A DNA stretch of 56,506 bases from an uncultured Bacteroidota bacterium (GTDB lineage: Bacteria; Bacteroidota; Bacteroidia; Chitinophagales; LD1): positions 1-56,506 of the forward strand of contig CAIOTH010000029.1 of the NCBI GenBank assembly GCA_903861145.1, given 5' to 3'. The position numbers and the translations under genes were made by a program. The first letter of the stretch is position 1, and each line of letters begins with the position of its first letter. The notes under the pieces were generated by a model. It had not been told where the DNA came from and did not search any database. It saw only the letters and a program-made list of their open reading frames with translations. This document shows positions 10,074 to 21,134 of this stretch, in pieces.

Positions 10074-11018
10074 ATGCCAGATATGCGATACATATTGATA
10101 ACCGACGAAGTCCATCCGTTTTTGCCAAACGGACTTCAGGAGATGGGCTTTGAGGTACACTATCGGCCCAAAATAAAACCTGAAGAAGTATTGAAGGTTA
10201 TAGACGATTATGAGGGCCTGGTTGTAAACAGCAAAGTATATGTGGGCAAAGAGATGATTGACCGGGCGACAAAATTAAAGTTTGTTTGCCGGGCGGGATC
10301 TGGTTTGGAGGTGATTGACCTGGAATATGCAAAAGCAAAAAACATCATAGCATTCAACTCGCCCGAGGGGAATCGAAATGCAGTGGCTGAGTTTGCCCTG
10401 GGCGCTCTATTAAATATGATGCGCAACATTTCAAAAAGCAATGTTGAGGTAAAGAGCCGGGAGTGGAACCGCGAGGAAAACCGTGGAAATGAGGTTTCGG
10501 GGCTAACAATAGGCATGATAGGTTTTGGCAATACCGCCCGGGCTTTTGCAAAATTGTTGAGTGGCTTCGATGTTCAGCTGCTGGCTTACGACAAATATTA
10601 TCATGGTTTTTCTTCAGGCCATGTTATGGAGGCTTCGCTTGAGCAAATTTTTGAAAAGGCTGATATATTGAGCCTGCACCTACCGCTTACTGCGGAGACA
10701 AGTGATATGGTCAACGTTGACTTTTTGAGTAAATTCAAAAAGCCCATTTGGTTGCTGAACACTTCACGCGGCAAGGTGCTCGATACTTCGGCTATGTTGA
10801 ATGGCATTAAAGAAGGTAGAATTATTGCTGCGGCCCTTGATGTGCTCGAGAATGAAAAAATCAATGCTCTTAATCCCGACGAGCAAAATGCTTTTGATGC
10901 TTTGTTGGCCGATAATCGGGTTTTTCTTAGTCCGCACATTGCCGGTTGGACCCACCAATCAAAACTTAAAATTGCCGAAGTTTTACTGGCCCGCATTAAG
11001 GCGGTATATGCCAAATAG
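10074..11018 (+). CDS. D-isomer-specific 2-hydroxyacid dehydrogenase (SerA-like)
   Basis: A 314-residue NAD-dependent dehydrogenase of the D-2-hydroxyacid family; the short form without an ACT domain resembles type III phosphoglycerate dehydrogenases. The Rossmann loop is IGMIGFGNTARAF, in which the third Gly of GxGxxG is Ala. The catalytic triad is visible: Arg in LLNTSRGKVLDT, Glu in LDVLENEK, His in LSPHIAGWT. The substrate could be 3-phosphoglycerate or another 2-hydroxyacid; the sequence does not decide. It lies 4 bases after rsmA. A second in-frame ATG exists at codon 4. Confidence 0.85.
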   Translation: MPDMRYILITDEVHPFLPNGLQEMGFEVHYRPKIKPEEVLKVIDDYEGLVVNSKVYVGKEMIDRATKLKFVCRAGSGLEVIDLEYAKAKNIIAFNSPEGNRNAVAEFALGALLNMMRNISKSNVEVKSREWNREENRGNEVSGLTIGMIGFGNTARAFAKLLSGFDVQLLAYDKYYHGFSSGHVMEASLEQIFEKADILSLHLPLTAETSDMVNVDFLSKFKKPIWLLNTSRGKVLDTSAMLNGIKEGRIIAAALDVLENEKINALNPDEQNAFDALLADNRVFLSPHIAGWTHQSKLKIAEVLLARIKAVYAK

Positions 11019-11309
11019 AAAAATCCCGTTATTCAATTAACTTCAATAATGCTATCCCTCCAAAACATAACTGCATGAAACATATATAGTTGATAGCCAT
11101 ATATTTTATGACACAAAAATGACATACACAATTGTAGTTCATATGCCAAACACGGTATTTTTACTCTTGTAATTCAGGCAGATTTTAGCAAATTAGCGAC
11201 CCTTTTTGGTTGATTTTTGAAAAAAATACCTGATTTAACAACTGGTTAACTTTGTTTCCCAAAAAAATCTATTTTTGACCGCTTTAGGTTAAGGATATAT
11301 AACTTGCGT
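11019..11309 (+). other. Leader region of the surface cassette
   Basis: An AT-rich stretch with no gene. A -7-like TATTTTTG lies at 11270-11277, with a TTTG at 11251-11254. The 15-base spacing is shorter than the 19-21 norm, so this is only a tentative promoter; it would leave a leader of about 25 bases before the ATG at 11310. No hairpin terminator is clear after the preceding gene. Confidence 0.4.
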
Positions 11310-14300
11310 ATGAAGAAAATACTTACTCTGCTTAGTTTGCTGGCTATTGTTTTTGCTGCTCGGGCACAGAATGGAGATATTTCGGGAAAAGTAAAGGACG
11401 AGAATGGCGAAGGTGTTCCTTTTGCCAACGTGGTTTTGGTTGATGCCAAAGGCGTAGCCACCGGAAGAGGTACCACCACCGACTTTGATGGTAACTACTC
11501 TATTAACCCTTTAACTCCGGGCCATTACAATTTACAAATTTCGTACGTTGGCTATGCCGCCCAAATTATTCAGGGCGTTGTAGTAAGTTCTGAAAAATCA
11601 ACCTTTATCGATGTTAAGCTTAAGCCATCTTCTCAGGAGTTAAAGGCGGTTGAAATTATTTCGTACAAAGTTCCTTTGATCGACCCGGGTAATACTTCGG
11701 CAACCAACGTGGTTTCATCTACCGAAATTGCCAACATGTCAACCAAAAACGTGAGTGATATTGCCGCAACTACTGCAGGTGTATTCCAAAATGATGCCGG
11801 AGGAGCTTTGAATATCCGCGGTGGACGTGAGGATGGAACTCAATACTATGTTGACGGGGTAAAGGTTATAGGAACTCCATCTATTCCTGCTTCTTCAATT
11901 GAGCAGTTACAGGTTATTACCGGCGGGGTGCCTGCCAAGTATGGCGACTTAAGCGGGGGTATTGTCAATATCACTTCAAAAGGCCCATCAAGCCAGATAA
12001 ACGGAAGTGTGGAAGTGCAAACTACTCAAGGTTTAGATGCCTATGGTTATAACCTGGTTAACGCCAGTTTAGAAGGCCCTCTTTGGAAAGAAAAGAAGAG
12101 CAAAAAAACCATTTTAGGTTTCTTTACGGCTTTTGAATACCAGCATCAAAAAGATGCCCAACCATCTGCCATAGGGCTTTGGCAGGTTAGGCCAAGCCTT
12201 TTGGATTCTCTTCGTGCAAATCCGCTTTCTAAAACGGCAGGCGCGCAAGGGTTTACATTGGCAGCCAATAATGTAACTATGGCCGATATGTATAACCAGC
12301 AGGTTAGGCCCAATATGGCCGAAACGGATTTTAGAGGCAACGCACGTATCGATATCAGGCCTGCTGATAATGTTACCTTATCATTCGGAGGTTCGGTTTC
12401 AGATGTTGAATCTAAACAATTTGTTTACGGGTATTCTTTATTCAATTATGACAATAACCCCACCGACCAATCGCTTGATTATAGGGTTTATGGCCGCTTA
12501 ACACATAATATTCAAAGTAAGCAGTCGGAAGAAGATGTAAAAGACGGAAAGAAAAAGAAATCATCGGCTTTTCAAAATGCATTTTACACCATACAGGTTG
12601 ATTACGAAAAATACAAACAACATTACCAGGGGGCGGGTGGTACCAATCCTTTTAACTATGGTTATATAGGTAAGTTTAATACCAAAACCGCTCCTGTATT
12701 TGGTTATGATACATTTGGCATTGCCGGTAAAACTTACCAGGGTTGGAAGCAAATCGGCATACAAGATACAGCTGTAGCTTTTACGGCTTCAAAAATTAAC
12801 CCAAATAGCACCGCATACACGCAAGAGTATTATAATTTATTAGGGGCACAAACTAACCCGGACGGAAGCCTTGAAGTTTACAATGGCAATAACGCCAACT
12901 TTACTTCCACGCTTACTGATATTTCAGGACACCAGGGTTTAACCAATGGTTCGCGTTCAAATTTTGTAAATAACATTTGGTATAACTCGGGACGTGCCTA
13001 TGGTGCTTATGGTAACTCACCGTTAAGTAGTGATCCAAGTTTGCCGGGCGGTGGCAATAGCGACCAATACCATGTACGTTTGGAAGGCGCTTTCGACATT
13101 TTGAAACCAGGTGCAGCCAGCCGTAACAAACACTCGTTCGAGTTTGGTATTGAGTATGAGCAAAGAATAGAAAGAAACTATCAGATGTTCCCACTGTTGG
13201 GTAATGGTCTTTACTCGTTAGCCCGCTCTTTGGTGAACTTACAATTACAGGATTATGACCGTAACAATCCTATTTTTAGAATTAATGGTCAAAACTATTC
13301 GTACAACGACCCCAACCGTCCTAATTTTTACTTAACCGATACTATTTTGTTTAATCCGGTTTATGAGGCCGGTAAACAGAAATACTTTGATAAACAATTA
13401 AGATCTGCCCTTGGCCTTGCTCAAAATAGCCTCACTTTATTGGATGTAGATAACCTAAGTCCTAACTTCTTAAACTTAAAGATGTTTAGTCCCGATGAGT
13501 TGATTGGCCAATCAGCCGGCTCTCAGTATGTTACTTATAGAGGGTATGATGTTTATGGCAACGTGCTTACCACGCAGCCATCATTTAACGACTTCTTTAC
13601 TCAAAAAGACGCCAATGGAAACTACACAAGGTTAATACCTGCTTATCGTCCTATTTATACCGATGCTTATATTTCTGACAGGTTCTTCTTTAAGGACCTC
13701 GCCTTTAACGTTGGTGTTCGTTTTGATCGTTTTGATGCCAACCAGGAAGAATTAATTGACCCTTATTCTCTTTACCCAATAAAGACAGTTGCCGAGATGC
13801 CTACTTTAAATGGCAACCCGCTTACCCATCCTGCCGATATAGGAAGCAATTATGCAGTTTACGTTGATAATAAAGATGCCGCTACGGCAGTTGTGGGTTA
13901 TAGAAACGGTAATACTTGGTATGATAGGTACGGTAATTTGGTGGCATCGGGTTCAGCAATTGCAGCAGCATCAAGTATCGGTACAATTCAACCTGCCCTT
14001 AAAAACCCCCATGAAGATATCACGGGTTCAACGTTCGATCCTAACCAGTCTTTTCAGCAATACAAGCCGTCTATTATAGTAATGCCCCGCTTGCAATTTT
14101 CGTTCAGCTTAACCGATAAGGCTTTGTTCTTTGCGCATTATGATATCCTGGCTCAGCGCCCTAACTCGCAGCAGGTGGCGGTTGATCCTACCCAGTATTA
14201 TTTCTTCGCAAACAATACAGGTGTGTTTAACAACCCTGCTCTTACACCATCAAAAACTATCGATTACGAATTGGGCTTTAAACAACGCGTAAGCAATACA

Positions 14301-15152
14301 GCAGCCTTTACAATCTCTGCTTTCTATCGCGAGTTCCGCGACCAGATTCAAATTCAGAAAATCACCAACTCATATCCTAACGATTATATTACATATGGTA
14401 ATATCGACTTTGGAACTACGAAAGGCTTTACCCTCGATTTTGATATGCGCCGCACCGGTAACTTTAGCCTAAAGGCTAATTATACCATGCAGTTTGCCGA
14501 TGGAACCGGTTCAGATCCTACAACACAATTAACGCTGATTAATGCCAACAGCCCTAACCTGCGTTCAATAAGCCCGCTTAACTACGATTCTCGCCACTTA
14601 ATTAATGTAAACCTTACTTATAGCTACGGTGTGGGTAAAGATTATAATGGCCCTACTATTAAGAACGTGCAAATATTATCTGATGCCGGTATTAGTTTCC
14701 AGGTTAGCGCCCGTTCAGGAACGCCTTACACCGCACAGGAAAATGTTACTCCACAGGCTTTGCAAAGTTCAAGCTCAAGGTCCATCGGTTTAGGCTCAAT
14801 CAATGGCTCCAGGTTGCCTTGGTACTTTAGGGTAAACATGCGCGTTTGGAAAAACTTTGATTTTGTAGCCGGAAAGAAGAAAGAGAAGAAAGATGGCAAC
14901 GGCCGCCCGTTAAGCCTGCAAATATACCTTCAGATTCAAAACCTGTTGAATACACAAAACGTGTTGACTGTTTACCGTTACACCGGCACTGCTAGCAGCG
15001 ACGGATATTTAAATGATCCGGGTAGTTTGAGCGCAATACAAAGTGCATTAAACCCACGTGCGTTTAAAGACCAATATGCGGTTTTCATTAATAATCCATC
15101 AAACTATGCCTTACCACGTCGTATTTATTTGGGTGGCATATTCACTTTCTAA
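11310..15152 (+). CDS. TonB-dependent outer-membrane receptor with carboxypeptidase-like domain
   Basis: A 1280-residue outer-membrane barrel. The frame opens at a TTG at 11304, but the ATG at 11310 starts the signal peptide (MKKILTLLSLLAIVFAARAQ). Residues 22-110 are the CarboxypepD_reg-like domain (GDISGKVKDENGEGVPFANV, FDGNYSI, LQISYVGYAAQ). Residues about 120-240 are the plug (NVSDIAATTAGVFQ, LNIRGGREDGTQYYVDGVK, VITGGVPAKYGDLSGGIVNI). The rest is barrel, ending in YLGGIFTF with the usual terminal aromatic residue. It takes up an unknown ligand with TonB energy. It is first in a cassette with a 1406-residue exoprotein (51 bases downstream) and a PorV-like barrel. There is no SusD partner. 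Confidence 0.9.
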   Translation: MKKILTLLSLLAIVFAARAQNGDISGKVKDENGEGVPFANVVLVDAKGVATGRGTTTDFDGNYSINPLTPGHYNLQISYVGYAAQIIQGVVVSSEKSTFIDVKLKPSSQELKAVEIISYKVPLIDPGNTSATNVVSSTEIANMSTKNVSDIAATTAGVFQNDAGGALNIRGGREDGTQYYVDGVKVIGTPSIPASSIEQLQVITGGVPAKYGDLSGGIVNITSKGPSSQINGSVEVQTTQGLDAYGYNLVNASLEGPLWKEKKSKKTILGFFTAFEYQHQKDAQPSAIGLWQVRPSLLDSLRANPLSKTAGAQGFTLAANNVTMADMYNQQVRPNMAETDFRGNARIDIRPADNVTLSFGGSVSDVESKQFVYGYSLFNYDNNPTDQSLDYRVYGRLTHNIQSKQSEEDVKDGKKKKSSAFQNAFYTIQVDYEKYKQHYQGAGGTNPFNYGYIGKFNTKTAPVFGYDTFGIAGKTYQGWKQIGIQDTAVAFTASKINPNSTAYTQEYYNLLGAQTNPDGSLEVYNGNNANFTSTLTDISGHQGLTNGSRSNFVNNIWYNSGRAYGAYGNSPLSSDPSLPGGGNSDQYHVRLEGAFDILKPGAASRNKHSFEFGIEYEQRIERNYQMFPLLGNGLYSLARSLVNLQLQDYDRNNPIFRINGQNYSYNDPNRPNFYLTDTILFNPVYEAGKQKYFDKQLRSALGLAQNSLTLLDVDNLSPNFLNLKMFSPDELIGQSAGSQYVTYRGYDVYGNVLTTQPSFNDFFTQKDANGNYTRLIPAYRPIYTDAYISDRFFFKDLAFNVGVRFDRFDANQEELIDPYSLYPIKTVAEMPTLNGNPLTHPADIGSNYAVYVDNKDAATAVVGYRNGNTWYDRYGNLVASGSAIAAASSIGTIQPALKNPHEDITGSTFDPNQSFQQYKPSIIVMPRLQFSFSLTDKALFFAHYDILAQRPNSQQVAVDPTQYYFFANNTGVFNNPALTPSKTIDYELGFKQRVSNTAAFTISAFYREFRDQIQIQKITNSYPNDYITYGNIDFGTTKGFTLDFDMRRTGNFSLKANYTMQFADGTGSDPTTQLTLINANSPNLRSISPLNYDSRHLINVNLTYSYGVGKDYNGPTIKNVQILSDAGISFQVSARSGTPYTAQENVTPQALQSSSSRSIGLGSINGSRLPWYFRVNMRVWKNFDFVAGKKKEKKDGNGRPLSLQIYLQIQNLLNTQNVLTVYRYTGTASSDGYLNDPGSLSAIQSALNPRAFKDQYAVFINNPSNYALPRRIYLGGIFTF

Positions 15153-15203
15153 TAACCGGTAATAATTGACAAGCATTAATTGAAATAATTTAAATTAAAG
15201 AAT

Positions 15204-18200
15204 ATGAAAAGGATTCTGTTGAACTTAGCACTTGGCTCGGCACTTATGCTGACAGGTGTTTGGTCAAGCGCCAAAGAAAATCCGAGAACTGACGGTGGTC
15301 AGTCTGCTAACCCAAGGGCTTCTTATAAAGACCAGGCTAGTAGCTGCCTGGGCGGTTCATCAAAGTTTGATATACAGATTAACAACGTTCGCGCCAGGTT
15401 GCTTACCGGTGGCGATTTGTGGTGGGACTTAAGTTCATCACCCAAATACGAAGTGCCTAAAGGCGACGGAACGCATCCTTTGTGTTCTATTTTCGCCGGT
15501 GCTATCTGGATTACCGGCCTTGATGCGGGTGGTAACCTTAAATGTGCTGCGCAAAGATATCGCGACTATGGTAACGACTTTTGGCCTGGCCCATTAGATG
15601 CACAGGGCAATATTGACCAGGCAACCTGCACTCAGTACGACCGCTTCTTTAACGTTTATGGTAAAGATATTGCAACTGCACAAACTGCATTTGCATTAAA
15701 GGGAAACTCAACAACCACCTCCGACATTCCAAATGATGTACTGGCATGGCCGGCGGTTGGAAACCAGTTTTTGGCCACAAACCCTGGTTTAATAGGTTCC
15801 ACATTTAATATTACGGGTAACCTTGCTCCCTTTTTTGATAACGATGGCGATGGATTATATAACCCATTAAAGGGTGATTATCCGGTAATCCCAACCCGTC
15901 ATGGAACACCAACTGCTTATGCCGATCAAATGACTTTTTGGGTATATAATGATGTGGGTAATATCCATAGCCAAAGTAATGGCGAAGCTTTAGGCATTCA
16001 GATAAATGCGCTTGCATTTGCGTTCTCTACTACTGATGATTTGAACAACATGACTTTTTATAATTATCAGGTTACAAACAAATCTTCGAATTCTGTTTTC
16101 CAAACTTATATTTCGCAATGGGTTGACCCTGATTTAGGGTGTTTCTCTAATGACTATGTGGGTTGCGATGTTTCAAGAAGTTTAGGTATTTGCTATAACG
16201 GAACGGCAACAGATCCTGATTGCGCTCCAGAAAACGGATATGGTACTCAGTTGCCTATTGTAGGCGTTGAGTTTTTTGAAGGCCCTAATGCCGATAATCT
16301 TGTTAACGGCCAAACCGTTGAAATTGGTATGACATCGTTTTGCTATTTTACAGGTCAGGGTGCTCCTTCTGCGGCACAGAGCGATCCTATAACAGCTGCT
16401 CAATACCGCAATTTCCAAACCGGCTTTTGGGGTGATGGAACCTGCTTTGAATATGGTAAAAGTGGATATAATAGTGGTGGGCCGTGCACTAAATTTTGCT
16501 TTCCTAGCGATCCAACCGATAATTCGGCCAATGCTTGGAGTGAATGTTCTGCTCATACAGTTCCGGGCGATCGTAGATTTGTGGAGTCTTCGGGTCCATT
16601 TACCCTTAAACCAGGCGTAAGCGAATATGTAACGGTTGGTGTTCCCTGGATGCGCCCTCCTGGTTTGGGTGTTGGAGCCTGTCCAAGTTTTCAAAATACA
16701 ATAGGCCCAGTGGCTGATGAGGCGAAAGCTTTATTCAATACCGGATTTAAGTTGCTAGACGGGCCACAGGCACCTACATTGCAAATTAGAGAGTTAGCTA
16801 ACGAGGTTATCATTAACCTGGTAAACTTAAAAGGCTCGAATAATTTTGGCGAAAGCTATAGCCAGACTGATGGCAAAACTGCACAACAGGTTGATCGCTA
16901 CTTAGGAGGCCACGGCGATTCTACCTATAAATTCCAGGGGTATATTTTATACCAGGTTAAAAGCCCGCAGGTATCTGCAAGCGATTTAAATGACAATACC
17001 AAAGCAATTGTTGTAGCCGAATGTGATATTAAAGACGGCATTTCTCAAATCGTTAATTTCGTTTCCGATCCGGTGTTAGGTTTGTTGGTACCTACCTTAG
17101 AGCTTACAGGTGCTAATACCGGTATTTCCGCTTCGTTTAATTTAACTACCGATTTATTTGCGCAGGGCACCAGTACGCAGTTGGTTAATAATACCACCTA
17201 TTACTACACCGCAGTGGCATTTGCCTACAATAATTACAAATCGTATTCACAGGCCTTCCCTGATTCAGCTGGCCAGAAAATACAGTACTTGCCCGGTAGA
17301 GGTAATTTTAATATTTATACAGCTATACCGCATATACCAGATCCACGGAACACCGGTACTATAATAAATTCGGTTTGGGGCCAGGGTGTTGATGTGCAAC
17401 GAATAGAAGGTAAAGGAAATGGAGGCAATAATATTGAATTAACTGCCGAAACGATCGAAAATATTCTGAATTCTTCTAACGGGTTTTATGATACGCTTAA
17501 TTATGTAAAAGGATTCGACCCTATCGGATTCCAGGTTACTGACCCCGTTGCTCTAAAAGAAGCCGATTTCCAATTGCAGTTTGTTGATACTATTACTAAT
17601 CATGTTGGCGCAACTACCACCTGGAGATTAATTGATATAACAAACAACGACACTATTTTTTCGGATAGAACGCTCGACCGTCCTTACCAACAGGAAATTA
17701 TTTCTTACAACGGCAGCGATGCTACCGATTATGGGTTCTCTATTAAATTAGGTACTCCGCTTTCGGTATATACGCTTCCGGGCCAGTATATTACGGGTAT
17801 AACAAATGCCCCAAGTCGCTATGTATATAACGTAGATAATAACCAATCATCTATTCACTGGCAGGATTCAACCAAACAGTGGTTAAGCTTTGTGGCGAAT
17901 GCAGGTACCGGCGTTACTAATTGGATTCGCTCAGGTGCAAGCCGTAACGACCCTGCTAGCCCGTCTCCAAATACCAAGGCTTCAGCCTATGCGTTTGATG
18001 ACAACTGGTATTATACCGGTAATGCACCGCCGTCATCTTATACTTCTGCCGCTTTCCATATGGATGACTCTGATAATATATTCAATAATATTTTGGGTGG
18101 CACCTGGGCTCCTTATTGCTTAACGCCTAACTATAGCAATAAGAGCGCAGTTAGCCCTGCACCCCCTTATGTTTATGGCCCAGGATTTAAATGGAAAAAC

Positions 18201-19424
18201 TACAACGGTATTGGATATAACTGTCCGCCACCGCAAAATACACTCGACCATTTGGCCAGCGTGGATATAGTAATAACACCCGACACTAAATTATGGTCGC
18301 AATGTATTGTATTTGAAACCGGCGAGGATGAAGGAACGAACTTGGGTGATGCACTTTACCACAGGATAGCGCCGCACACCGGCGCAGGTGCCTTTAAAGG
18401 GCAAATAAGAATGCAACACTCGATGGATTGGAATAATGCAAGTGCACGCGATTACCTGGTTGCCAATGCTAACGACAAAGGCCGCTCATGGTTCCCGGGC
18501 TACGCAATCAATGTAGAAACGGGCGAAAGGCTGAACATCGCTTTTGGAGAGAGTTCAAATATGGGCGACCAAAACGGACGCGATATGTTGTGGAACCCGA
18601 CTTCGAGCTTATATAATCCTATTAGTCTCCCGGGCTCGTTAGTTCCTCAGCTACCGTATTTTGGTGGTAAGCATTTTATTTATGTAATGAATACGCGGTA
18701 TGATGCTGGCAAAGCTGCACAAAAATTGCTTATCAGCACTTACGATAGTGTAACTACTGGTACCAGTATCCTTCCAACATCTGTTTATCCTTTCTATAGG
18801 ACCCTAATGTGGACGTGTATTCCCTATTTAACACCGGGTTATAGTTTTGTTAGTGATGGCAATTCCAACGTAGCATATATACCACCCAGTGAGATTGATA
18901 TTAAACTACGTGTCGAAAGGCCTTATGATCGTATGTTCGCCGTTACCTCTAATCCACCGGGTATTGACTCCTTACCGGTTTACAACTTTAGTACTAAAGG
19001 TTTGGGGGCAACTCAAAACAACGCCGCAGTGGCTAAAAGCGCGCTCGATTTGATAAGGGTAGTGCCTAACCCGTACCTTGCATACTCTGCTTACGAATCA
19101 ACCGCTAACAGCGCCACGGTTTACATTACCAATTTGCCAAACACCTGTAATATCAGCATTTACTCGCTTGATGGAACGCTTATCAGGGTTTTAAACCGCG
19201 CTATAGGTGTTAACCATACTACCAACGATGTGGTTGAAACCAGCAATGGCGAGCCTATTACAACGGTTAACGTTTCAACTTCGGTTAGTTGGGATTTAAC
19301 CAATTCGGCAGGCGTGCCAATTGCAAGTGGTGTTTATCTTTTCCATGTTGATGCACCGGGCATTGGCCAAACAACTATAAAGTGGTTTGGTGCGGTAAGG
19401 CCTGATAATATTACCAACTACTAA
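15204..19424 (+). CDS. Large secreted protein with FlgD/T9SS-like C-terminal domain
   Basis: A 1406-residue exported protein; residues 1-23 are a signal peptide. The family is not one I can name. The mature N-terminus (residues 40-140) has conserved-looking NNVRARLLTGGDLWWD and GAIWITGLDAGG segments, and there are scattered Cys-rich stretches around residues 310-480. The last 130 residues contain VVPNPYLAYSAY, then ITNLPNTCNISIYSLDGTL, SWDLTNSAGVPIASGVYLF and a final beta strand. This resembles the FlgD-like/T9SS C-terminal fold seen in related phyla. With the TonB receptor before it and the PorV-like gene 25 bases after it, I infer a T9SS-exported surface subunit. The function is unknown. 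Confidence 0.75.
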   Translation: MKRILLNLALGSALMLTGVWSSAKENPRTDGGQSANPRASYKDQASSCLGGSSKFDIQINNVRARLLTGGDLWWDLSSSPKYEVPKGDGTHPLCSIFAGAIWITGLDAGGNLKCAAQRYRDYGNDFWPGPLDAQGNIDQATCTQYDRFFNVYGKDIATAQTAFALKGNSTTTSDIPNDVLAWPAVGNQFLATNPGLIGSTFNITGNLAPFFDNDGDGLYNPLKGDYPVIPTRHGTPTAYADQMTFWVYNDVGNIHSQSNGEALGIQINALAFAFSTTDDLNNMTFYNYQVTNKSSNSVFQTYISQWVDPDLGCFSNDYVGCDVSRSLGICYNGTATDPDCAPENGYGTQLPIVGVEFFEGPNADNLVNGQTVEIGMTSFCYFTGQGAPSAAQSDPITAAQYRNFQTGFWGDGTCFEYGKSGYNSGGPCTKFCFPSDPTDNSANAWSECSAHTVPGDRRFVESSGPFTLKPGVSEYVTVGVPWMRPPGLGVGACPSFQNTIGPVADEAKALFNTGFKLLDGPQAPTLQIRELANEVIINLVNLKGSNNFGESYSQTDGKTAQQVDRYLGGHGDSTYKFQGYILYQVKSPQVSASDLNDNTKAIVVAECDIKDGISQIVNFVSDPVLGLLVPTLELTGANTGISASFNLTTDLFAQGTSTQLVNNTTYYYTAVAFAYNNYKSYSQAFPDSAGQKIQYLPGRGNFNIYTAIPHIPDPRNTGTIINSVWGQGVDVQRIEGKGNGGNNIELTAETIENILNSSNGFYDTLNYVKGFDPIGFQVTDPVALKEADFQLQFVDTITNHVGATTTWRLIDITNNDTIFSDRTLDRPYQQEIISYNGSDATDYGFSIKLGTPLSVYTLPGQYITGITNAPSRYVYNVDNNQSSIHWQDSTKQWLSFVANAGTGVTNWIRSGASRNDPASPSPNTKASAYAFDDNWYYTGNAPPSSYTSAAFHMDDSDNIFNNILGGTWAPYCLTPNYSNKSAVSPAPPYVYGPGFKWKNYNGIGYNCPPPQNTLDHLASVDIVITPDTKLWSQCIVFETGEDEGTNLGDALYHRIAPHTGAGAFKGQIRMQHSMDWNNASARDYLVANANDKGRSWFPGYAINVETGERLNIAFGESSNMGDQNGRDMLWNPTSSLYNPISLPGSLVPQLPYFGGKHFIYVMNTRYDAGKAAQKLLISTYDSVTTGTSILPTSVYPFYRTLMWTCIPYLTPGYSFVSDGNSNVAYIPPSEIDIKLRVERPYDRMFAVTSNPPGIDSLPVYNFSTKGLGATQNNAAVAKSALDLIRVVPNPYLAYSAYESTANSATVYITNLPNTCNISIYSLDGTLIRVLNRAIGVNHTTNDVVETSNGEPITTVNVSTSVSWDLTNSAGVPIASGVYLFHVDAPGIGQTTIKWFGAVRPDNITNY

Positions 19425-19449
19425 AATATATTATATAAAGTAATAGATT

Positions 19450-20523
19450 ATGAAGAGAATTATAGTAATACTTAGTTGTGTATTGATAACAGGCGGGCAG
19501 ATTTTTGCAGGAAATCCCGATAGGAGGGGTGAAGCTGGTGCGGCTGAATTACTGATGAATGGCTGGGGCCGCTCAACCGGTCTTTGGAGCATGAATTCGG
19601 CTGATGTGCAGGGTATCGAAGCAGAGAGAATAAATCCTGCAGGCATAGCTTTTACCCAGCACACCGAAATAGCCGCTTCATACGCGCTGTGGCTACAGGG
19701 CTCGGGTGTGGGTGTGGCGCATGCCGGGTTTGCACAAGGCTTTAAGGATAACGTATTTGCATTGAGTATCCAGGCTTTAAATTTGGGTAGCATTCAAAAA
19801 ACAACTACCAGTAACCCTGAGGGCGGCATAGGTAGCTACAGCCCTGCTTTTATCAATATCGGTGTTTCGTATGCCCGTAAGTTTTCAAATAGTATTTCGG
19901 GTGGCGTTACAGTGCGTTTAATTGATGAAGGCCTGGGTAACCTCAATGCCTTTGGTATGTGTATTGATGCAGGCTTACAATATGTTACAGGGCCAAAAGA
20001 CAATATCCACTTTGGTGTTTCATTGCGCAATGTAGGTACACCCATGAAATTTAGCGGCGATGCTTTGGCTACTTCAGTAAATATTGTATCAACCTCTACC
20101 TATACTTTAAGCGAGCAAAGCACCGTAAATAAATTTGAGTTGCCTACACAGTTAAATATTGGAGCCGCCTATGATATTTGGATGGGAGCCAAGAAGGAAA
20201 TTAAACCCAAAGTTTTTAAGCAAGACTATAGGTTAACTGCCCTTGCAAACTTTACATCAAATGCCTTTGGTTATGATTATTACGGCGTTGGGCTTGAGTT
20301 TGGTTGGAGAGAAATATTCATGCTGCGCGCAGCATGGCGTTTTGAAAAAGGCCAGTTTAATCCGGCTCAAAGGCTTGATGTTTATACTGGGTTGGCAGCA
20401 GGTGCTACGTTTGACATACCATTTAAGAAAGATGGCGGGCCGCGCCTTGCAATTGATTACTCTTTCAGGGCAACTTCGCCTTTTCAGGGTACCCACAGCT
20501 TTGGTTTGCGGATTAACTTGTAA
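19450..20523 (+). CDS. PorV/PorQ-family outer-membrane protein
   Basis: A 357-residue outer-membrane beta-barrel. Residues 1-20 are the signal peptide (MKRIIVILSCVLITGGQIFA). The mature N-terminus carries the family signature: GEAGAAELLMNG, then GRSTGLWSMNSADVQGIEAE and RINPAGIAF. The remainder alternates in beta-strand pattern and ends HSFGLRINL. PorV (LptO) binds C-terminal domains of T9SS cargo and shuttles them from the translocon; PorV paralogues linked to particular cargo are common. Its place directly after the 1406-residue exoprotein suggests that it is a dedicated partner for it. It is probably not the housekeeping PorV, but the sequence alone cannot settle that. Confidence 0.8.
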   Translation: MKRIIVILSCVLITGGQIFAGNPDRRGEAGAAELLMNGWGRSTGLWSMNSADVQGIEAERINPAGIAFTQHTEIAASYALWLQGSGVGVAHAGFAQGFKDNVFALSIQALNLGSIQKTTTSNPEGGIGSYSPAFINIGVSYARKFSNSISGGVTVRLIDEGLGNLNAFGMCIDAGLQYVTGPKDNIHFGVSLRNVGTPMKFSGDALATSVNIVSTSTYTLSEQSTVNKFELPTQLNIGAAYDIWMGAKKEIKPKVFKQDYRLTALANFTSNAFGYDYYGVGLEFGWREIFMLRAAWRFEKGQFNPAQRLDVYTGLAAGATFDIPFKKDGGPRLAIDYSFRATSPFQGTHSFGLRINL

Positions 20524-20548: not shown

Positions 20549-20583
20549 AAAGACGTCTCCGTTCAGGGACGTCTTTCCTTTTT
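20549..20583 (+). terminator. Rho-independent terminator of the surface cassette
   Basis: AAAGACGTC (20549-20557) pairs with GACGTCTTT (20568-20576), followed by CC and five T residues. It separates the TonB/PorV-like cassette from greA. Confidence 0.85.
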
Positions 20584-20660: not shown

Positions 20661-21134
20661 ATGTCAGGCATATTTTATATGAGTAAGGAAGGCCTTGAAA
20701 AGCTTCAGGAAGAGGTGAAATATTTGAGGTTTGTAAAACGCAAAGAAGTGGCCCGGGCTATTCAGGAAGCCCGCGAAAAAGGCGACCTAAGCGAAAACGC
20801 TGAGTATCATGCCGCCAAGGAAGAGCAGGGCCATGTTGAGGCTAAAATAGCTGAGCTGGAGACCAAGCTGGCCAGCGCCCGCATTATGGACGATAGGCAA
20901 ATGGATACCTCAAAGGCTAATATTCTTTCTACTATAGAGGTTTTGAATGTGAAGATGAGCAAGAAGATGACCTTTACTTTGGTTAGTGAGGCTGAGGCGA
21001 ACCTTAAAGAAGGCAAACTATCGGTTAGTTCACCCATAGGCAAGGTGCTGCTTGGTACCTCGGTTGGGGCTAAGGTAAAAGCGCTAACACCCGGCGGAGA
21101 GATGGAGTTTGAAGTGCTTAAAATAATGGCTTAA
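20661..21134 (+). CDS. greA: Transcription elongation factor GreA
   Basis: A 157-residue factor that enters the RNA polymerase secondary channel and stimulates cleavage of backtracked transcripts. The N-terminal coiled coil carries the conserved tip AREKGDLSENAEYHAAKEEQ with the acidic pair used in catalysis. The C-terminal FKBP-like domain holds SPIGKVLLGTSVGAKV. The N-terminus MSGIFYMSKEGLEKLQEEV gives the normal length; the inner ATG at codon 7 is a possible alternative start. The HIT gene follows after 11 bases, so the two are likely one transcript. Confidence 0.95.
   Translation: MSGIFYMSKEGLEKLQEEVKYLRFVKRKEVARAIQEAREKGDLSENAEYHAAKEEQGHVEAKIAELETKLASARIMDDRQMDTSKANILSTIEVLNVKMSKKMTFTLVSEAEANLKEGKLSVSSPIGKVLLGTSVGAKVKALTPGGEMEFEVLKIMA

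Follow-up and report, generated by a model that had tools for sequence, protein, structure and literature searches.

Knowledge of how Bacteroidota take up glycans comes largely from the SusC/SusD importers. In Porphyromonas gingivalis, the surface proteins PorU and PorZ are anchored by the barrels PorV and PorQ (PMC5562754) and retain their C-terminal domains (CTDs) (PMC11285876); a PorZ/PorU-type domain is reported to stay on a PorV/PorQ barrel (PMC5562754, PMC10202324), and in a review cognate PorV-like barrels are suggested to keep the CTD from being cleaved (PMC10202324). Each type B protein has a PorP-like barrel of its own to which it binds (PMC9143113), and BamG holds BamH within the barrel assembly machinery (BAM) complex of Bacteroidota (PMC12611786, PMC12578637). 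Here we describe a three-gene cassette in a stretch of 56,506 nucleotides (the window), which is the complete contig CAIOTH010000029.1 of the 4.7-Mb assembly GCA_903861145.1, from an uncultured Bacteroidota bacterium (Bacteroidia; Chitinophagales; LD1); among named loci, those nearest to it belong to metagenome bins of Bacteroidetes and Chitinophagales. The cassette encodes a TonB-dependent receptor (TBDR), a very large exported surface protein (EXO) and an outer-membrane barrel of the PorV/PorQ family (PVL). It is widespread and behaves as a unit, and we see an even chance that it constitutes a SusC/SusD-like TonB importer, in which EXO would be a lid tethered on PVL by a CTD of the type 9 secretion system (T9SS).

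The three genes lie on the + strand: TBDR at 11310..15152 (an open frame of 1280 amino acids from its ATG; a TTG at 11304 is also possible), EXO at 15204..19424 (1406 amino acids) and PVL at 19450..20523 (357 amino acids). The gaps are 51 bases between TBDR and EXO and 25 bases between EXO and PVL; the open frames confirm the order, strand and spacing given in the initial annotation of this DNA. Counting the source genome, matches to any part of EXO, some of which span the N-terminal or C-terminal domain only, were found in 55 of 60 genomes in a search of relatives, in 129 of 149 genomes sampled from the class (82 of 99 genera) and in 61 of 118 genomes sampled from the phylum. Adjacency was counted in the loci L057-L096 and L106-L165 of the order and class, on EXO frames longer than 1150 amino acids and scoring above 700 bits (94 frames; L047-L056 were left out, as several repeat the same genomes). 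Of the 93 full-length EXO genes whose loci extend far enough on either side, 85 lie in a TBDR-EXO-PVL triad, with median gaps of 25 and 27 bases. The remaining eight are solitary extra copies of EXO; seven come from genomes with a triad among the fetched loci (the eighth, from G124, was not checked). From the phylum-search hits we also chose loci of other classes: the triad occurs in all 20 picked among the best hits and in 8 of 20 further ones. TBDR belongs to all of the 85 class or order triads and the 20 other-class triads counted.

The cassette is also lost and duplicated as a whole. In 22 EXO-negative genomes (G035 and G044 were excluded for low completeness, and further negatives of the phylum search lie outside the set), the orthologues of PVL and TBDR are both missing in 22 of 22: the PVL profile scores at most 60 bits there, whereas the window gene scores 568, and all TBDR matches fall short of 1e-40. 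Duplication was seen in five genomes of other classes, each with two triads whose copies share 30-54% identity, similar across the three genes; a pairing test on these five was weak: of 10 comparisons, not independent of each other, 7 or 8 agreed. By these adjacent loci and by the joint absence, the three families show the conserved co-occurrence that the initial annotation depended on, and their adjacency is the rule rather than a rarity.

PVL was assigned to the PorV/PorQ family by its score of 119.2 bits against NF033709 (curated cut-off 90), a model that matches 24 of 24 rows of the PVL alignment at E <= 0.001. It stays far below the thresholds of PorV proper (NF033710, 47.9 bits, cut-off 250) and of PorQ proper (NF033711, 72.5 bits, cut-off 220), and its profile retrieves the PorV of Flavobacterium johnsoniae from the PDB at 4.7e-13. 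The initial annotation would have been refuted had PVL been the sole PorV of its genome, but the source genome encodes four PorV-family barrels: PVL, a PorV (418.9 bits) beside PorU, a PorQ (331.7 bits) and a PorV2 beside PorU2; PorZ is a separate gene elsewhere (493.4 bits, NF052228). A tree built from 31 barrels of nine genomes places all eight PVL proteins, one of them from a genome of another class, in a single clade (support 100/98), separate from PorV, PorQ and PorV2. Judged by these profiles and this tree, PVL is a dedicated barrel with its own subfamily within the PorV/PorQ family, as the initial annotation had supposed in calling it a dedicated PorV paralogue. We rejected two other identities: PVL is not the PorV of the genome, which is another gene from which PVL clades apart, nor is it BamG, whose model (NF053685) gives 18 bits against a cut-off of 250 and matches 1 of 24 alignment rows at E <= 0.001. 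The BamG-BamH pair is alike in that a FadL-type barrel keeps a surface protein next to a second barrel (PMC12611786, PMC12578637), but BamH is a lipoprotein and its neighbour is BamA. PorP/SprF with type B cargo is alike in that a barrel is dedicated to one surface protein, usually in a gene cluster (PMC9143113, PMC10202324); the barrel family and the CTD type differ there, and the parts of those papers on this pair name no TonB receptor.

Other barrels of the family were seen in related arrangements. Some lineages have a PVL with a C-terminal OmpA domain (L065:11076-12836, L079:5806-7314 and L083:4981-7137, the last with two OmpA stretches); the domain was found in 3 of 3 long PVL proteins, chosen for their length, and would fit a fixed anchor better than a shuttle. 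In the source genome, PorV2 stands beside a 1730-amino-acid protein of PorU2 type (C95, L013:9162-15482), another pair of barrel and surface protein. The PorV-family barrels of the other-class loci L216, L218, L224 and L232 each lie directly 3' of a protein with an end that resembles a T9SS CTD by eye, and in L218 and L224 the PorZ model also matches that preceding protein. Genome G228 holds 16 PorV-family matches. In L225:290-3878 (G063), the end of a TonB receptor, a FadL/PorV-like barrel and a gene that by eye is lipoprotein-like follow head to tail with touching ends, perhaps a variant with a lipoprotein in place of the T9SS protein.

EXO begins with a signal-peptide-like segment that has no Cys near its end, and thus it does not resemble a lipoprotein as read from its sequence. 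Searches of Pfam, NCBIfam and the PDB (the last with the EXO profile) returned nothing for the whole protein, nor is there a whole-protein match to the PorU model or to the PorZ model NF052228 (cut-off 260 bits). Its CTD (amino acids 1275-1398, 19026..19397) is more informative. Alone, the CTD of the window copy scores 21.4 bits against TIGR04183, below the cut-off of 23 for type A domains; among 25 members, at E <= 1, the PorZ model matches 25 (best 3.9e-11), TIGR04183 matches 25 (best 4.5e-7) and the PorU model matches 24 (best 5.7e-7). The predicted model of the CTD has the immunoglobulin-like (Ig-like) fold of T9SS type A cargo domains, and its closest match is PorZ 5m11 (Z 10.7, 89 residues, 30% identity), followed by PorU (Z 9.3); cargo CTDs bound to the T9SS translocon align at Z of about 7, a level that unrelated Ig-like domains also reach. 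A Lys near the C terminus has been described in T9SS cargo (PMC10994853), and the corresponding K1393 of EXO is nearly invariant. The orthologue matches and the predicted fold support a T9SS-type domain, in agreement with the T9SS-like C-terminal domain of the initial annotation.

Beyond this domain, full-length EXO proteins carry an extended tail. Measured as the residues beyond the last GxY motif (one row with an unreadable end was dropped), the tail has 28-35 residues in 84 of 86 class or order copies with an adjacent PVL and 27-33 residues in 27 of 28 other-class triads. It has 21-23 residues in PorZ (10 of 10), 19-20 in 14 of 16 short or tandem EXO relatives of other classes, and 24-28 in six PorU proteins, so that length by itself cannot separate EXO from PorU. 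Exactly 13 residues follow the last Lys in 79 of the 86 copies, ending in Phe in 63 and in Tyr in 16; in the window this extension, past Lys-1393 and with an aromatic last residue, occupies 19383..19421. A reading of EXO as a plain T9SS cargo is weakened by the PorZ-like domain and the long tail. EXO with PVL is comparable to PorZ-PorQ and PorU-PorV of P. gingivalis, in which a surface protein with a PorZ/PorU-type CTD is likewise matched with a PorV/PorQ-family barrel; unlike them, EXO lacks the whole-protein match to PorU or PorZ, has a tail longer than that of PorZ, and its pair is tied to a TonB receptor. We hypothesize that the extended tail serves docking.

The structure of EXO was predicted in two halves, with a mean predicted local distance difference test (pLDDT) of 89.3 for amino acids 20-760 and of 86.9 for amino acids 690-1406. 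The N-terminal domain (about amino acids 48-517, 15345..16754) is predicted as a beta-supersandwich of the kind seen in GH15, GH94 and GH116 sugar enzymes: its best match is 9ju0 (Z 19.2, 253 residues aligned, root-mean-square deviation 3.2), and dextran dextrinase, cellodextrin phosphorylase, glucodextranase and GH116 enzymes match with Z from 19.2 to about 16 over 230-274 residues. The catalytic residues of these enzymes sit in their helical barrel, outside the region matched by EXO, and a binding role is therefore more likely than catalysis for the modelled domain. The fold search with the C-terminal half resolved the CTD only; no fold was assigned to the middle of EXO (about amino acids 720-1275), which entered that search as part of the half. 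Relatives of the N-terminal domain were also seen with ordinary tails: a short one in the same genome (L012:16646-18313) has a type A tail that scores 45.8 bits against TIGR04183, and L206 has several in a tandem row, with short T9SS tails.

In TBDR, the CarboxypepD_reg domain (11379-11624), the Plug domain (11694-11954) and the TonB beta-barrel all exceed their Pfam cut-offs; across 22 TBDR rows, at E <= 0.001, CarboxypepD_reg matches 22, Plug 18 and the barrel model 9. With CarboxypepD_reg and Plug, TBDR has the domains of a SusC/SusD-type receptor, and the cassette shares with SusC/SusD such a receptor and a co-encoded surface protein for which we propose a lid-like capture. It differs in that the partner is a T9SS-type protein of 1000-1700 amino acids, with no lipobox in the window copy and no Pfam match to SusD, and in that the third member is a PorV-family barrel. 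The initial annotation was right in describing the cassette as SusD-less: the source genome has no match to PF07980, the only SusD family searched genome-wide, at E <= 1e-5. At the same threshold we compared the 22 EXO-negative genomes with 22 EXO-bearing genomes of our choice (the triad was seen in 18; G075 ends after EXO; G107, G138 and G204 were not fetched). Of the 22 EXO-bearing genomes, 17 lack SusD and five have 1-7 copies; of the 22 EXO-negative ones, 2 lack it, three have 1 and seventeen have 5-41. The contrast gives a Mann-Whitney p of 1.3e-6 by genome and of 2.9e-4 by family mean, with relatedness and lifestyle not removed, and as a comparison of 44 chosen, non-independent genomes on PF07980 alone it leaves room for doubt about an importer. 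The T9SS channel SprA is encoded in the source genome; it is present in 22 of 22 EXO-bearing versus 17 of 22 EXO-negative genomes (two-sided Fisher p 0.048, weak).

A described locus that resembles this cassette is the alginate locus of Rhodothermus marinus, where tonB, hypA (a protein with a T9SS type A sorting domain) and hypB (PorV/PorQ family) are consecutive; their annotated products follow the order of the cassette, from a TBDR through a T9SS type A protein to a PorV/PorQ protein (PMC9530828). The gene-list section of that paper makes no comment on the trio, and its text does not mention SusD (PMC9530828). Gene maps of Porphyromonas heme uptake also name T9SS-domain and porV/Q genes in their figure legend (PMC12106395). 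In the titles and abstract openings of the literature searched, which included neither subscription journals nor bioRxiv, we found no description of the triad, the R. marinus gene list being the one similar case.

As we propose it, TBDR, EXO and PVL would assemble into a single outer-membrane complex whose task is TonB-driven uptake. The export of EXO would go through the T9SS by means of its PorZ-like CTD; like PorZ on PorQ, this domain would escape cleavage and remain bound to PVL, and the conserved extension at the C terminus may contribute to this retention or shield the domain from the sortase. Held beside TBDR, EXO would capture the ligand, most likely a glycan or a glycoconjugate fragment, with its N-terminal part and hand it to TBDR; the operation would be like that of SusC/SusD, except that a barrel and not a lipid would anchor the lid. 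We infer this physical complex, its docking, the roles of tail and lid, and the class of ligand. The docking is plausible mainly because of the PorZ-like domain and the dedicated barrel, and the uptake because TBDR is in every counted triad and a similar trio stands in the R. marinus alginate locus. The analogy with SusC/SusD made in the initial annotation gains support from the SusD-poor genomes, the fold resembling that of carbohydrate enzymes and the R. marinus locus; it loses some in that the cassette lies beside greA and HIT, and not beside carbohydrate enzymes.

The main alternative, which we consider unlikely, is that EXO and PVL are a further attachment or quality module of the T9SS, a sibling of PorZ-PorQ that acts on other surface proteins or on lipopolysaccharide, with TBDR as a regulator or a supplier of lipid or sugar and not an importer of food. 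The PorZ-like domain of EXO, the higher score of PVL for PorQ than for PorV, the single full TBDR orthologue in each of six order or class genomes, and the presence of SprA in all EXO-bearing genomes tested agree with it, and the OmpA domain of some PVL proteins recalls the PorE-PorP-PG1035 complex (PMC9143113). However, SprA is kept by 17 of the 22 EXO-negative genomes, so the T9SS does not need EXO; moreover, TBDR is a constant member of the counted triads and is missing along with EXO and PVL, two triads coexist in each of five other-class genomes, and a similar trio stands in an alginate locus (PMC9530828). It is improbable that PVL serves to display EXO as an adhesin or coat protein and that TBDR is merely co-regulated: the great size of this surface protein and the N-domain relatives with ordinary T9SS tails, also in tandem, would suit such a role, but the adjacency of TBDR and the joint absence across the phylum sample do not. 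Very improbable is that the three genes are only old neighbours kept by slow rearrangement like greA and HIT, for although greA is also conserved, next to 74 of 82 class or order triads (in itself a point against an importer), the triad is whole in the 20 selected other-class loci, beside which no greA match is listed, all three genes are duplicated in five genomes, and elsewhere they are absent as a whole.

Several further observations weigh against the proposed importer. In 6 of 6 EXO-bearing order or class genomes tested, TBDR matches at 1489-1783 bits and there is one full orthologue per genome (candidates were scored for the best 24 per genome only), unlike many SusC/SusD pairs, which could mean a housekeeping role. 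We had considered that the long tail marks only copies beside PVL, and this was not borne out: among solitary full-length copies of the class, 7 of 8 still have it (27-28 residues), as do 4 of 5 copies of other classes beside which no PVL is visible (27-29). The extended tail thus tracks the full-length EXO type rather than strictly the PVL neighbour, a revision that leaves our estimate unchanged, since the main grounds for docking are the PorZ-like domain and the dedicated barrel. A beta-supersandwich alone is no proof of sugar binding. The hypA gene of R. marinus is shorter (2181 nt) and is likened to EXO by annotation only (PMC9530828), and R. marinus is not free of SusD, since a xylan locus of this organism encodes a SusC/SusD pair (PMC6987092). 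Finally, no carbohydrate enzyme is among the four window neighbours tested (rRNA adenine dimethylase, the dehydrogenase, greA and HIT), all of which are housekeeping genes; the flanking frames of the 20 other-class triads were inspected for sugar enzymes by eye only.

With respect to the context of the cassette, a Rho-independent terminator-like hairpin on the + strand (20549..20576) starts 25 bases past the PVL stop and consists of 11 pairs followed by CCTTTTTGAT. The single terminator of the initial annotation stands in part: the best-placed hairpin does follow PVL, but a scan of the region on both strands gave 17 sites (11.0 expected by shuffling), and the 16 others are mostly weaker. A promoter scan was uninformative, with 19 sites found and 26.4 expected by shuffling. 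Outside the triad, greA (20661..21134, +) is the usual next gene in the class, and a D-2-hydroxyacid dehydrogenase (10074..11018, +) lies upstream; a gene for this enzyme or a phosphoglycerate dehydrogenase precedes many class triads and some of other classes (for example, L171:13865-15454).

The EXO-bearing genomes tested have few or no SusD genes, and the triad is a likely alternative to the well-known SusC/SusD importers. A broader proposal, which we advance tentatively and at somewhat less than even probability, is that the triad is an ancestral, phylum-wide TonB importer with a T9SS-exported lid that a retained CTD with an extended tail locks on a PorV-family barrel private to it, that it would be a main large-substrate gate of SusD-poor Bacteroidota, and that SusC/SusD would have replaced it in SusD-rich lineages. 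If true, the triad would connect TonB transport with the display of surface proteins by the T9SS, which are treated as distinct machines; the extended tail would be a candidate sequence mark for T9SS proteins that stay docked and uncleaved; and the PorV/PorQ family would gain a general role as private docking barrels.

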